In this document: in pieces, positions 341 through 39,047 of the stretch | Layout of the letters: each line of letters opens with the position of its first letter | Position numbering within the stretch: position 1 is the first letter of the stretch | Origin: a virus | DNA length: 39,047 nt | IMG/VR virus record: IMGVR_UViG_3300011445_000601 | Span: 1 to 39,047 of that record | Strand: one strand, 5' to 3' | The notes under the pieces: model-generated | What the model saw: the letters and a program-made list of their open reading frames with translations, nothing else | Databases searched by the model: none | Told to the model about the DNA's origin: nothing | Translations under genes and position numbers: made by a program

Positions 341-1009
341 ACGCGGGTTGTGTTCTTCCTGGTTCGCTCGTGCGCCAACGTGTATCGCGGCTACCAGGGG
401 GGTAACCAGTGGTCCGCCTACGACGGGTTTCTGTCGTTCTTCAGGCATGTCGCCAAGCTCGATATCGACTATTCGAGCTGGAAGCACTGGGAGACGTTGT
501 CGGAGCATTCCGGCCCGCGGTACGTGTTTGCCGACTTCTGCATTATCTCCGACCGGCCGGAAACGCTGCTCATTGATGAGCAGAACCGACCGCACTGCGA
601 AAGCGGCCCGTCGCACAAGTGGCGCGACGGATGGGAGCTTTTCTATTGGCACGGTCTTCGGGTACCGGCGAAGTGGATCACAGATAAGGACAACGTGCGG
701 CCAGAAGAGGTGCTGCAATGGGGCAACATCGAGCAGCGCCGCGCCGGCTGCGAGAGCATCGGCTGGAAGCGCATTCTTGCTGAGCTCAACGCGACCGTTG
801 TGCAGGAGGACCCGAATCCGCAGTTTGGCACTCTGATCAAAGTGGATCTGCCCGATGCGGCGGGGAGCCTGTTTCTCAAGGCCCGCTGCGCGACGGGGCG
901 AGACTTCGCGCTGCCCATGCCCGCTCACATCAAGACAGCGTGCGAGGGCGGCGCGTGGTCGTACGGGCTGACGGAGGACGAATACAGGAAGCTCGAGGTG
1001 CGCACGTGA
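2..1009 (+). CDS. DUF6745-like protein with tetrapeptide repeats, C-terminal part (continues from window end)
   Basis: This is the 3' part of a gene whose 5' part starts at 38403. The frame is open from base 2, so the first ATG or GTG near 350 is not the true start. Codons 1 to about 112 encode tetrapeptides of the form A-(A/D)-T-X. A globular domain of about 220 residues follows, with the run DGWELFYWHGLRVPAKWI, preceded by the FADFCIISDRPETLLID region and followed by ILAELNATV. From memory this pattern (SERPxEIxxDExxRxHxxxGPxxxWxDGxxxYxWHGxxVPxW) is that of DUF6745 proteins, which often carry short tetrapeptide repeats before the domain. Function is unknown. The gene is early, between the Cro-like gene and replication, and its stop overlaps the next GTG (GTGA). 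Confidence 0.75.
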   Translation, partial: TGAATGAATHAATDDATDDATDDATDAATGAATHAATDDATDDATDAATYAASGAATYAATYAATRAATYTATGAATRDATGAATHAATDAATHAATRDATYTATDAATYTAITRVVFFLVRSCANVYRGYQGGNQWSAYDGFLSFFRHVAKLDIDYSSWKHWETLSEHSGPRYVFADFCIISDRPETLLIDEQNRPHCESGPSHKWRDGWELFYWHGLRVPAKWITDKDNVRPEEVLQWGNIEQRRAGCESIGWKRILAELNATVVQEDPNPQFGTLIKVDLPDAAGSLFLKARCATGRDFALPMPAHIKTACEGGAWSYGLTEDEYRKLEVRT

Positions 1010-1134
1010 ACGCCCACGACCCCTACTCGCTACAGTGCACGATCTGTGGCGTGAGTGAGGTCGCGATCGAGGCTCGTCGATACGAAGGCGGCATTCTCTG
1101 CGTCCCTGACCTTGTCCTCACGGTGAAGCCATGA
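1006..1134 (+). CDS. small protein with one CxxC pair
   Basis: A 42-residue reading frame starts with GTG overlapping the upstream TGA (GTGA) and ends in an ATGA overlap with the next frame. It has a CTICG knuckle near residue 11 and one further Cys near residue 30, so it could be half of a zinc ribbon. Support comes from translational-coupling spacing and composition only. It sits at the front of the replication gene cluster. Confidence 0.5.
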   Translation: MNAHDPYSLQCTICGVSEVAIEARRYEGGILCVPDLVLTVKP

Positions 1135-35548: not shown

Positions 35549-35715
35549 CGGATGTCGGCCTTGTCGTCACAGGGGTCGTGCTCGTCGCGCGGCGTCGGGC
35601 ATGCCGGGCACACGCCGTGCTCCAGCGGGGCGCCGCATTCGAGGCAGGCGAGAACGACTCGCCGCGGCGACGTGTTCGCCAGCCCTGGAATCTTGTGAGG
35701 CCGGGGCGCTTTCAC
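35545..35715 (-). CDS. 56-residue zinc ribbon
   Basis: GTG start in a GTGA overlap and ATGA overlap at the end. CLECGAPLEHGVCPACP gives two CxxC pairs within 17 residues, a compact zinc ribbon. The longer frame on the same strand upstream is antisense-like noise. Confidence 0.6.
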   Translation of the reverse strand: MKAPRPHKIPGLANTSPRRVVLACLECGAPLEHGVCPACPTPRDEHDPCDDKADIR

Positions 35716-36053
35716 AGCTGCACCATACCGACGCACGCCGGCCAGCCTCGCGACAGCCGCTCGCACGACATCGCGCGCGCTTTCGCAACGCACTCGTCGG
35801 CCTGGTCCGCGTCCATGACCACGATGCCGAGCGCGCCGCCCTCGCACTGTGCGTAAACCTTGCGCAGCTGCTCGTGGTACCAGGCGTCGGGCGACAGCTC
35901 GCACTCGGTGAGCCGCACCTCGAGCGCGCGCACGTACTCGGTGCACGTCGCATCGCCGACGCGGACCGCGCAGCTGCTGCACGTCGCAACGAGCGCCGCG
36001 ATTGCGTAGACGCCAACGACGACGGAGGCAGTGAACAGAGCGCCTAGTTTCAT
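35712..36053 (-). CDS. Cys-rich exported or membrane-anchored protein
   Basis: 113 residues with a hydrophobic N-terminal segment (LGALFTASVVVGVYAIAALVATC) and nine Cys in all, most after the membrane segment. It probably sits in the inner membrane facing the periplasm, or is secreted. GAGGT precedes the ATG. Its place in an early operon suggests a host-takeover or exclusion role, which is only a guess. Confidence 0.6.
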   Translation of the reverse strand: MKLGALFTASVVVGVYAIAALVATCSSCAVRVGDATCTEYVRALEVRLTECELSPDAWYHEQLRKVYAQCEGGALGIVVMDADQADECVAKARAMSCERLSRGWPACVGMVQL

Positions 36054-36063
36054 GGTTGACCTC

Positions 36064-36258
36064 TCAATTCCACGGTGAAACCCTCCAAGGGTGGGACGAC
36101 AACTCGCGCTCCATTGCCCGCGTGATCTCCGCCCGCATCGCGCGCATGGCCTTCATGGCCTGCGTACGCTCGCACTTGTGGCCGTGCAGGTGACCGGCCC
36201 AGAACGCGATTACGCAGAGCAGAATCCCCGAGGAGAGAGCGATTACGACTTCGATCAC
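36064..36258 (-). CDS. small single-pass membrane protein
   Basis: 64 residues: hydrophobic residues 3-24 (EVVIALSSGILLCVIAFWAG), then a His/Lys-rich and helical charged tail. Coupled by ATGA to the secreted lysozyme-like gene. The larger overlapping frame at 36050-36289 is Arg-rich noise. Possible partner of the lysozyme-like protein or an early membrane effector. Confidence 0.6.
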   Translation of the reverse strand: MIEVVIALSSGILLCVIAFWAGHLHGHKCERTQAMKAMRAMRAEITRAMERELSSHPWRVSPWN

Positions 36259-36737
36259 GATTCCACCAACGCCTTTCTCGCGTTCGCATATAGACGGTCG
36301 TAGTTCTTCGGCCTGTCCTTCACGCGGCGGTCCGTCGCCGGCAGTCTGCCAACGTGACGGCGAATCGCCTTGCGCATGCTGCCGCCAACCATCGCGCGGT
36401 GAATGCGCAGCTCGCGCCCCGCTAGGTCAGTGGAAAGAGTGTTCGACGCGCATATCTCGTCCGGCGAGTGCCCATCCCACCAATAGAATTGCAGCTGGAA
36501 TAGGCCGTACGCCCGCGGTTTGCCGTTCTTGTCAGGGTCGCACTCCCACCGTTTGCAGGCACACCTCTCGATGGTCTCGCGAAAGTCAGACTCAGCCGCC
36601 GCCGTGACGACGAGAGCGACGGCGATCTCCAAGTCGTCACCGGCGGCCAGGGCGATGTCGGCCGCGTACCGCTCCGCAGTGGCCGCGGGGAGCGCCGGGG
36701 CGAGCGTGAGGATTGCTGCGAGGACGAGCGCGGTCAT
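36255..36737 (-). CDS. secreted lysozyme/transglycosylase-like protein
   Basis: 160 residues. N-terminal signal peptide (MTALVLAAILTLAPALPAAT, likely cleaved after ATA). Then VVTAAAESDFRETIERCACK with a candidate catalytic Glu (E49), and AYGLFQLQFYWWDGHSPDEI, the GLFQ segment of the lysozyme fold; Cys pairs may form disulphides. Unlike the endolysin at 29630 it has its own export signal and lies in the early operon, so it may act in the periplasm on entry or exclusion, or be a signal-exported lysin. Confidence 0.65.
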   Translation of the reverse strand: MTALVLAAILTLAPALPAATAERYAADIALAAGDDLEIAVALVVTAAAESDFRETIERCACKRWECDPDKNGKPRAYGLFQLQFYWWDGHSPDEICASNTLSTDLAGRELRIHRAMVGGSMRKAIRRHVGRLPATDRRVKDRPKNYDRLYANARKALVES

Positions 36738-36886
36738 TGCTTCTCCGTGATCCGCACAGGATGCAGGTCGTCGTACGCCACAAGCGACTTGGTCGAGCGC
36801 GAGGCGTCGTTGATCAGAAAAAGGACGATCCCAGGCACCGACATCACGCCGCAGAACGTCCAGCGCTGGCGAGAGAGGGGGCTCAC
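36734..36886 (-). CDS. 50-residue single-pass membrane peptide
   Basis: GTG start in a GTGA overlap; ATGA overlap with the next gene. Basic start, hydrophobic stretch (FCGVMSVPGIVLFLI), then a polar outer part. The couplings on both sides make it likely despite its size. Early membrane peptide of unknown role. Confidence 0.55.
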   Translation of the reverse strand: MSPLSRQRWTFCGVMSVPGIVLFLINDASRSTKSLVAYDDLHPVRITEKQ

Positions 36887-37047: not shown

Positions 37048-37054
37048 GCCTCCG

Positions 37055-37083
37055 ACGATAATGGCACTCGACAACAATGTCAA
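37055..37083 (-). promoter_or_regulatory. leftward early promoter (PL-like)
   Basis: On the minus strand: TTGACA (37083-37078), 17-bp spacer, TATCGT (37060-37055), then 7 nt to the ATG at 37047. The spacer contains a GACA-TTGT-TGTC inverted repeat with the -35 and ends in TGCCAT. Most positions are the same as in the rightward promoter at 37430, so the two are probably controlled by the same repressor. Confidence 0.75.
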
Positions 37084-37137
37084 GCGCCATGATTGTCGAT
37101 TCTACCCGACGTGACGGCCGGCCATGCGCAGGCTCTC

Positions 37138-37406
37138 CTACCTGGCTCGTGGGCGGCTACTTGGGCGCTCTTGGCTGCTCGGCGCCTCCACCGCGGCATT
37201 CTCGCCCGCCACTAACCTTTCCACCGTCGTCCCGAGCGCAGCGGCGAGCCTGGCCACGGCGGCAACCGACTGGATGACCTGTTTTCGCTTTCCAGACTTG
37301 AGCCCATGGTTCTGTCCTCGTTGCCAGCGGTCGCAGGACCGGCCCCCTTCAGATCAAAGCCGGCGGCGGCGATGGCTTGCCGTAGCTCTTGCTCAAAGGT
37401 TCGCAT
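37138..37406 (-). pseudogene. CI-like XRE repressor gene with apparent frameshift
   Basis: The ATG at 37406 opens MRTFEQELRQAIAAAGFDLK and would run to a stop at 37212, but the second part of that frame is not protein-like. Another minus-strand frame, closed upstream by a TGA at 37354-37356 and ending at 37138, gives LKSGKRKQVIQSVAAVARLA then AALGTTVERLVAG, a textbook helix-turn-helix XRE end. One extra G in the G5 run (plus-strand C5 at 37343-37347) would join them into 89 residues. Placed between two promoters facing away from it, this is the expected repressor gene. The break may be real or a homopolymer error. Confidence 0.65.
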
Positions 37407-37416
37407 GGCAAGCGCC

Positions 37417-37442
37417 GCAACGATGGCTGTTGACATCGTTGC
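37417..37442. promoter_or_regulatory. operator-like inverted repeat over the rightward -35
   Basis: Perfect 9-bp arms GCAACGATG (37417-37425) and CATCGTTGC (37434-37442), 8 bp apart, overlapping the TTGACA box and beginning 11 bp from the repressor ATG. A second, weaker inverted repeat GATGC-N9-GCATC (37445-37463) covers the -10. Both suit a dimeric helix-turn-helix regulator controlling both divergent genes. Confidence 0.7.
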
Positions 37443-37458
37443 CAGATGCCATTATCGT
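37430..37458 (+). promoter_or_regulatory. rightward early promoter (PR-like)
   Basis: TTGACA (37430-37435), 17-bp spacer, TATCGT (37453-37458), then 7 nt to the ATG at 37466 and no Shine-Dalgarno, so the Cro-like message is probably leaderless. Same boxes, same spacer length and the same TGCCAT spacer end as the leftward promoter. Confidence 0.75.
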
Positions 37459-37465
37459 GCATCTC

Positions 37466-37738
37466 ATGTCAGGACGACCCTATCGGACGAATCTTGGAAA
37501 ACGACGCAGTGAGGGGGTCCGGCTCCTCTGGGAGGCGATGCGCCTTCGTGGCCACGACCAGGCCACCGCGACGAAGGTGCTCGGCTGCGGCACCGGCGTT
37601 GTCTCGCGGTGGCTCTATTGCGAGTCGAGCCCGACGGCGCCGTGGCCGACGAAGATCGAGGAGAAGTATGGCGTACCGGCTGGCGCTTGGGGCAAGAGCC
37701 CTTCGAAGCGAATCCGATTACCTGGCGAGGCGGCGTGA
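37466..37738 (+). CDS. Cro-like helix-turn-helix protein
   Basis: 90 residues. LLWEAMRLRGHDQATATKVL then GCGTGVVSRWLYCESSPTAP has the helix-turn-helix with VxRWL recognition segment, and IEEKYGVPAGAW closes it, as in Cro/YdaS-type proteins. First gene after the rightward promoter and divergent from the repressor frame, so it probably plays the Cro part. Start chosen by promoter spacing; the longer frame from 37124 runs antisense to the repressor. Confidence 0.7.
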   Translation: MSGRPYRTNLGKRRSEGVRLLWEAMRLRGHDQATATKVLGCGTGVVSRWLYCESSPTAPWPTKIEEKYGVPAGAWGKSPSKRIRLPGEAA

Positions 37739-37761: not shown

Positions 37762-37959
37762 CTAATTCGTCGGCTCCCCTCCGAGGGAATCCATGCACCG
37801 AATGACCATGACGGTGGTGGTCGGCACGGCGTAGGCGACGCTCCCGAGCGACTGCGCTACCGCGCCCGTCGCACGCCATCGGCCATCAGGGGCGACGGTG
37901 ACCTTGCTCGATGCGCCGCAACCGACGGCGAGCAGCAGGCAGGCGAGCAGAAGGCGCAT
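37762..37959 (-). CDS. small lipoprotein opposite to early genes (moron candidate)
   Basis: 65 residues. MRLLLACLLLAVGCGASSKV is a text-book lipoprotein signal (lipobox LAVGC). The short mature part is beta-rich (VTVAPDGRWRATGAVAQSLG). Third codon positions are mostly G or C, as in the sure genes. It faces the Cro-like gene tail to tail, 23 bp apart, against the direction of the early rightward operon, so it could be expressed in the lysogen and change the host surface. A plus-strand frame (37738-38037) overlaps it and cannot be fully excluded. Confidence 0.55.
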   Translation of the reverse strand: MRLLLACLLLAVGCGASSKVTVAPDGRWRATGAVAQSLGSVAYAVPTTTVMVIRCMDSLGGEPTN

Positions 37960-38033: not shown

Positions 38034-38381
38034 ATGAAAGAAGTGACGAACATGGCATGCCAGGGCGACGTGCTTTTCCGCAAGGTGGCGGCCATCCCGC
38101 CGGGATTCGAGGCGCAGCCGGACGCGGCGCGGACGGTGGTGAGCCATTCGCAGTACGGGCACGACCACTCGGTGGACGCGCCGGGCGTGCGCCACTTCGT
38201 GGGCAAAGATCCGCTCGTCTCTTACTTGCAGCTGGCGTCGGTGCCGCACGCGGACGTGGTGCATCACCGCGCGCACGACACCCACGAGACGATTCGCCTC
38301 ACCGGCGGTGAGGGCAGTGTTTTCGAGGTGCGTCGCCAGCGCGAGGCGACGGTCGACTCTTGGCAACGCGTGGACGACTAG
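38034..38381 (+). CDS. 'GDVL' family small phage protein
   Basis: 115 residues. MACQGDVLFRKVAAIPPGFE, then RTVVSHSQYGHDHSVDAPGV and HDTHETIRLTGGEGSVFEVR. This QGDVLxxxVxxIP...VxxHSxTGHxH pattern is, from memory, found in many phages and bacteria directly before DUF6745-type genes, as here. His-rich; might bind metal. Function unknown. Confidence 0.7.
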   Translation: MKEVTNMACQGDVLFRKVAAIPPGFEAQPDAARTVVSHSQYGHDHSVDAPGVRHFVGKDPLVSYLQLASVPHADVVHHRAHDTHETIRLTGGEGSVFEVRRQREATVDSWQRVDD

Positions 38382-38402: not shown

Positions 38403-39047
38403 ATGGCCAAAAATAAGCTCTACACGTTGACCGACGAGCACCGCGCGCAGCTGAAGCCGTGGGCCGACAAGTGGACATCGAACGCGATGAGCACCGCGCC
38501 GATGACCGCGGACGATAAGCAAATCTGCGCCGATGCCGTGCGCGGCATGTACGCAAGTGCCAAGTTGGAGCCACCGAAGGCAATTGTCTTTTGCGCAAGT
38601 CCGCTGACTGCTGCGCTCGCGAGCGGCATTGCCTGCGGTGTCTGGTACCTGCGAAAGCATCCTGAGCTCCACCAGCGTCTTTTTGGCCAGAGCATAGCGG
38701 AGCGTGAATTGATGTCCGCGATCGGGCCGGCGTGCGCAATTGCGGTCGCATCAGCAAGGCGGAGGTTGGCGACTTTGGTCGTCCAGCCTCCGCCGCCAGC
38801 GACCTACGCCGCGGCGACCGACGACGCGACCTACGCCGCGACCGACGCCGCGACCCGCGACGCGACCGACGCCGCGACCTACGCCGCGACCGGCGCCGCG
38901 ACCGGCGCCGCGACCCACGCCGCGACCCGCGACGCGACCGGCGCCGCGACCGGCGCCGCGACCTACGCCGCGACCGACGACGCGACCGACGACGCGACCG
39001 ACGCCGCGACCCACGCCGCGACCGACGACGCGACCGACGACGCGACC
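38403..39047 (+). CDS. DUF6745-like protein with tetrapeptide repeats, N-terminal part (continues at base 2)
   Basis: 215 codons from the ATG at 38403 to the window end, which falls exactly on a codon boundary. Residues 1-130 form a helical domain (LKPWADKWTSNAMSTAPMTA; AIVFCASPLTAALASGIACG), followed by PPPP and then the A-(A/D)-T-X tetrapeptides. The frame joins the C-terminal part at base 2 if the ends overlap by the 4 bases GACC. With the C-terminal part this gives a protein of at least about 550 residues, its repeat number uncertain. The N-terminal motif order is that of DUF6745-type proteins. Confidence 0.75.
   Translation, partial: MAKNKLYTLTDEHRAQLKPWADKWTSNAMSTAPMTADDKQICADAVRGMYASAKLEPPKAIVFCASPLTAALASGIACGVWYLRKHPELHQRLFGQSIAERELMSAIGPACAIAVASARRRLATLVVQPPPPATYAAATDDATYAATDAATRDATDAATYAATGAATGAATHAATRDATGAATGAATYAATDDATDDATDAATHAATDDATDDAT
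38799..39047 (+). repeat. 12-bp tandem repeat tract (right half)
   Basis: About 20 units of the same 12-bp repeat as at 1-340, in the same coding phase relative to the gene (A-T-X-A). The last 45 bases repeat sequence also found inside the first 65 bases of the window, but no long exact end overlap exists. This supports a break inside one tract rather than a terminal duplication. Confidence 0.95.

Follow-up and report, generated by a model that had tools for sequence, protein, structure and literature searches.

Genes and features of the locus

The window, by which we mean the whole stretch of 39,047 nucleotides that was analysed, is an IMG/VR virus record (IMGVR_UViG_3300011445_000601) with a GC content of 65%. 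At both of its ends the record runs into an array of 12-bp repeats belonging to a single gene, and it is therefore probably a circular genome that was cut inside this array. The protein in question is conserved and its array is built of four-residue repeats, the unit of which varies by phage (ATDA/ATYA-type, VGDQ or LGSQ). The region of interest contains a repressor-like gene between two outward-pointing promoters, with a gene for a Cro-like protein on the right and an operon on the left (Table 1).

Table 1. Features of the putative switch region and its surroundings; positions are those of the window unless another contig is named.
Feature	Position	Strand	Remarks
Four-residue repeat array	Window 38810-39047 and 1-338; L017 9770-9850; L022 6620-6880		12-bp tandem repeat in the window
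Left operon after its first gene	35712-36886	-	From ORFs and hydrophobicity
Lipoprotein-like protein	35712-36053	-	
Small membrane protein	36064-36258	-	
160-aa protein	36255-36737	-	Signal-like start; AESDF...GLFQ stretch like lytic transglycosylase
Small membrane protein	36734-36886	-	
First gene of left operon, 54 aa	36883-37047	-	ATG 7 nt after -10
Left start codon	ATG 37047-37045	-	7 nt (CGGAGGC) after -10
Left outward promoter, TTGACA-N17-TATCGT	37055-37083	-	Exact pattern match
Left promoter boxes	TTGACA 37083-37078; TATCGT 37060-37055	-	17-nt spacer with TGCCAT at its end
Left operator, ACAATCATG-N8-CATTGTTGT	37071-37096	-	Over left -35; pattern search
Repressor-like gene, broken	37138-37436	-	N-terminal part in frame 37212-37436; C-terminal part in frame 37138-37353
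Right operator, GCAACGATG-N8-CATCGTTGC	37417-37442	+	Over right -35
Right outward promoter, TTGACA-N17-TATCGT	37430-37458	+	Exact pattern match
Right promoter boxes	TTGACA 37430-37435; TATCGT 37453-37458	+	17-nt spacer with TGCCAT at its end
Right start codon	ATG 37466-37468	+	7 nt (GCATCTC) after -10
Cro-like protein, 90 aa	37466-37738	+	ATG 7 nt after -10; predicted XRE/lambda-repressor-type helix-turn-helix
Conserved 115-aa protein	38034-38378	+	Flanks cassette in relatives too

A first-pass annotation of the window had described promoters with identical boxes, the same spacer end and the same 7-nt distance to an ATG, flanking the repressor-like gene and pointing away from it. The coordinates bear this out, the left promoter lying on the minus strand and the right one on the plus strand, and the twin-promoter pattern was absent from all 100 dinucleotide-preserving shuffles of the sequence. 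The looser pattern TTGACA-N16-18-TANNNT has exactly two sites in the window, which are these promoters, against 0.05 sites expected from a Markov simulation. The two make up an inverted repeat of 41 nt with 78% complementarity between the copies, which stand 322 nt apart. The twin promoters are thus confirmed as a real feature of the locus.

A putative operator was found over each -35 box. The right one has the perfect 9-bp arms that had been described before, while the left one has 12-nt arms that are 83% complementary, and the palindrome common to both is RCAAYSATG-N8-CATYGTTGY. Exact matches to this pattern in the window were limited to the two operators of Table 1, with two further operator-like matches, each with three mismatches, occurring at about the level of chance. 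Sets of three operators (OR1-3, OL1-3) were not found in the window, there being one operator per promoter. A search of IMG/VR for the exact operator-promoter gave no match, as would be expected if every cassette has its own operator.

The proteins of the left operon gave no match of note to Pfam or PHROG, and the fold model of the 160-aa protein was too poor for use. From the small membrane proteins, the lipoprotein-like protein and the transglycosylase-like stretch, the operon is probably a lysis cassette under direct repressor control and does not look like a counterpart of the N-type arm of lambda.

Related phages and possible exchange of the cassette

The closest relative, a sister phage (G001, IMGVR_UViG_3300011441_000005), is 92–100% identical to the window over most of the aligned length and 97% identical over the 1 kb leading up to window position 37048. 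Here, one base before the left ATG, the identity ends (L017 position 7963), and it resumes at 37935. Between these points G001 carries a different repressor, a different Cro-like gene and different operators, which suggests that the immunity cassette has been exchanged, or has diverged, right up to the left gene. Counted from its first codon, that gene shows 89% identity to the one in G001, and the left start codon can for this reason be regarded as secure.

Two further relatives were reached through the conserved neighbouring 115-aa protein, namely G009 (IMGVR_UViG_3300006028_000020) and G007 (IMGVR_UViG_3300033475_000075). Each of the three relatives, like the window, has just two TTGACA-N16-18-TANNNT sites, which are in every case the twin promoters, and a repressor gene lies between outward promoters with shared operators. 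The left promoter of G001 reads TTGACA-N17-TACCAT-N7-ATG and the right one TTGACA-N17-TACCGT-N7-GTG. G009 has a perfect inverted repeat of 36 bp, with N7-ATG on the left and N11-ATG on the right, and the same arrangement is repeated in a second contig (L072). The repeat of G007 is 33 bp long, again perfect, and the layout is a mirror image, with N7-ATG before the Cro-like gene and, on the opposite side, a long leader without a near start and with GGAG before the TTG start codon.

Scans of additional records with the 115-aa gene, several of them fragments, and of bacterial loci that contain it yielded no further consensus twin promoters. Nor was a recognisable homologous switch found in a more distant phage (G005), where a weak TTGATA-17-TAGTCT-6-ATG arrangement (L012, 15694-15731) precedes an early operon and could be another leaderless start. 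No close prophage was detected by a terminase scan of genome contigs or among 379 scanned genomes from the phylum to which an uncultured Myxococcales genome belongs.

The genes between the promoters and the Cro-like genes of the relatives match XRE/Cro-CI helix-turn-helix families in Pfam and PHROG, although the match is weak for the repressor of G001 and for the Cro-like protein of G007, and in all three genomes family matches place a helix-turn-helix repressor next to a Cro-like gene. In the window the Cro-like protein has this fold in its predicted structure, and the repressor gene is broken and without a family match. The window Cro-like protein itself gave no family match in Pfam or PHROG, and neither similar DNA nor this protein was found in an annotated phage collection. 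Searching with the protein alone returned no relatives and, with the G007 protein aligned to it, only G007; compared directly, the two prove homologous, with 33% identity (E 2e-9, for a single comparison). Its AlphaFold model has a helical core with pLDDT values mostly of 83–91, for which Foldseek returned C.BclI, ImmR, P22 c2 and lambda repressor at probabilities of 0.98–1.0 (E values of at least 0.01). The frame of this gene is open from an in-frame ATG at 37124 (37124-37738, 204 aa), so that translation might begin there and the right promoter have nothing to do with the start. We consider this most improbable, as the additional upstream part would be antisense to the repressor gene and the related Cro-like genes of G001, G009 and G007 all begin right after the promoter.

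Spacing of promoters and start codons

At sigma-70 promoters transcription usually starts 7–8 nt after the -10 box, with a purine preferred, which would put the +1 position of the twin promoters on the start codon or one base before it. Counted over the four phages, six of the eight outward promoters have exactly 7 nt between the -10 box and a start codon, where a random point would have a start codon at precisely this distance with a probability of about 0.012 (some 1.2% each); the loci behind this count are not fully independent, the window and G001 sharing their left gene. A pyrimidine-purine step falls at the start codon in five of these six N7 genes, with G-A in G007.

Of the six N7 genes, five lack a usable Shine-Dalgarno sequence. 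It was sought without success at both genes of the window, both of G001 and both of G009, and the Cro-like gene of G007 has a Shine-Dalgarno-like stretch (-6.3 kcal/mol). GGAGG or GGGGG abuts two of the left ATGs, too close to them for normal use. Comparison of Shine-Dalgarno strength over all genes is weak, given uncertain start codons. One of the N7 starts, on the right of G001, is GTG; in some bacteria GUG can open a leaderless message, which it does poorly in E. coli (PMC9031893).

The proposal that both first messages of the window are leaderless is thus upheld as far as the start codons are concerned, both of which lie close enough to the -10 box for a leaderless message, and the leaderless state itself is predicted from this spacing. 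It is not a universal feature of both sides, as judged from the right promoter of G009, where 11 nt would give a leader of about 4–5 nt, and from the other side of G007. The G009 spacing would also suit a different explanation, in which these are repressor-controlled promoters whose transcripts start 1–6 nt upstream of the start codon or slip, short leaders without a Shine-Dalgarno sequence give messages that are translated much like leaderless ones, and the 7 nt reflect compaction and not selection. The -10 boxes are weak, agreeing with the consensus at no more than three to four of six positions, so the register could shift. However, the recurrence of exactly 7 nt in six of the eight promoters, which come from four phages whose operators differ, together with the pyrimidine-purine step in five of six N7 genes, makes this explanation unlikely, and starts at or next to the first codon are preferred.

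State of the repressor gene in the window

The first-pass annotation had placed a repressor frame between the promoters. The position fits, but the gene is split over two reading frames. Neither piece gave a match in a Pfam search, and we call it a repressor gene on account of its position, the intact XRE genes with an open frame at the same place in G001, G009 and G007, and a weak BLAST match to the XRE gene of one relative. The PF00589 integrase domain was matched in G001, G007, G009 and G005 and not in the window record, in which a search with the G001 integrase itself was also negative. At window positions 1009-1017 the sequence is contiguous and skips a 2.7-kb segment of G001 (L017, 10464-13156) that contains the integrase and an excisionase-like gene. 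This junction suggests a deletion in a lytic derivative.

Neither the intact repressor nor the integrase of a working lysogeny was therefore found in the window record. Because the repressor is split and the integrase missing, the window phage probably derives from a temperate one and is now lytic, unless assembly errors account for both the frame break and the absence of the integrase, and its repressor is probably inactive. That the switch works in this phage is doubtful for the same reasons. Given the broken repressor and the loss of an integrase that the sister phage retains, there is close to an even chance, slightly on the lower side, that the operators of the window are relics and that its promoters now act as constitutive early promoters. 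On the other hand, both operators are still near-perfect and paired, they might continue to serve the Cro-like gene, which is intact, and the break in the frame may have arisen in assembly. The relic explanation for the window is compatible with the one that we favour for its relatives. Reading the locus as a switch holds in that its geometry is kept, fully or partly, in three other phages with different operators, and falls short in the window itself, where the repressor is broken.

Comparison with known switches

Phage lambda has three operators on each side, and its PL and PR messages carry leaders. The present locus resembles it in that the repressor gene is flanked by a pair of outward lytic promoters, each overlapped by operator sequence, and differs in having one operator per promoter, start codons 7 nt after the -10 box and a left operon that is probably composed of lysis genes and not of an N/recombination arm. 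The description as lambda-like consequently applies to the twin outward promoters and the operators over both -35 boxes, and does not extend to a tripartite OR/OL set. The cI message of lambda PRM is leaderless (cited in PMC8630535).

In phage PY54 the cI and cro messages were both found by RACE to begin at AUG (PMC4488713), so leaderless messages on the lytic side are not in themselves novel. The immB region (cI/cro) of PY54 is likewise a divergent repressor/Cro switch with a cro mRNA that begins at AUG. There, the leaderless cI and cro share one intergenic region, whereas here the putative leaderless genes head the two operons that lead outwards from the repressor, and each operon has a separate copy of one operator-promoter. 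The paaR2 message of a cryptic E. coli O157 prophage is also leaderless (PMC8630535), and the paaR2/ydaS switch is again a divergent switch of the lambda type with a leaderless regulator message, in that case the message shown to be leaderless being that of paaR2, on the repressor side. The open-licence literature searched contained no example of a repressor flanked on both sides by leaderless outward operons that are kept across cassettes with different operators. We regard the arrangement as a conserved variation on an established type of phage switch.

Proposed mechanism and implications

Given the sites, their spacing, the pairing of the operators and their conservation, all of which are read from the sequences, we favour, with a probability of roughly 0.7, a compact immunity cassette in which an XRE repressor lies between near-identical outward operator-promoters whose messages are leaderless. 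Where transcription starts, what binds and represses, and in which order this happens, we infer as follows. The repressor, bound at both operators over the -35 boxes, would silence both outward operons, that is, the Cro-like gene and the genes downstream of it on one side and, on the opposite side, what is probably a lysis cassette. Once repression is lost, both promoters would fire, and RNA polymerase may be expected to start at the first codon or within a nucleotide of it, since the -10 box ends 7 nt before the start codon, mostly with a pyrimidine just before it. Translation of the resulting leaderless messages would depend on ribosomes able to recognise an AUG or GUG at the very 5' end. 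These operators are probably also bound by the Cro-like protein, which would damp the promoters later.

Paired outward TTGACA-N17-TANNNT-N7-start arrangements around an XRE gene provide a signature with which such switches may be sought in high-GC environmental phages. The conservation of this geometry on outward operons with unrelated operators also opens to testing the question whether selection has made leaderless translation part of the decision between lysis and lysogeny or whether it is an accident. A more far-reaching possibility, which we put forward tentatively and think somewhat doubtful, is that these are exchangeable immunity cassettes designed so that neither outward operon has a leader, with regulatory DNA that ends at the left start codon and with both lytic arms using the leaderless route. 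If this were true, a new repressor could be swapped in together with its matching operators without touching the gene behind them, and with leaderless lytic arms the decision for lysis would possibly depend on what state the ribosome pool is in.
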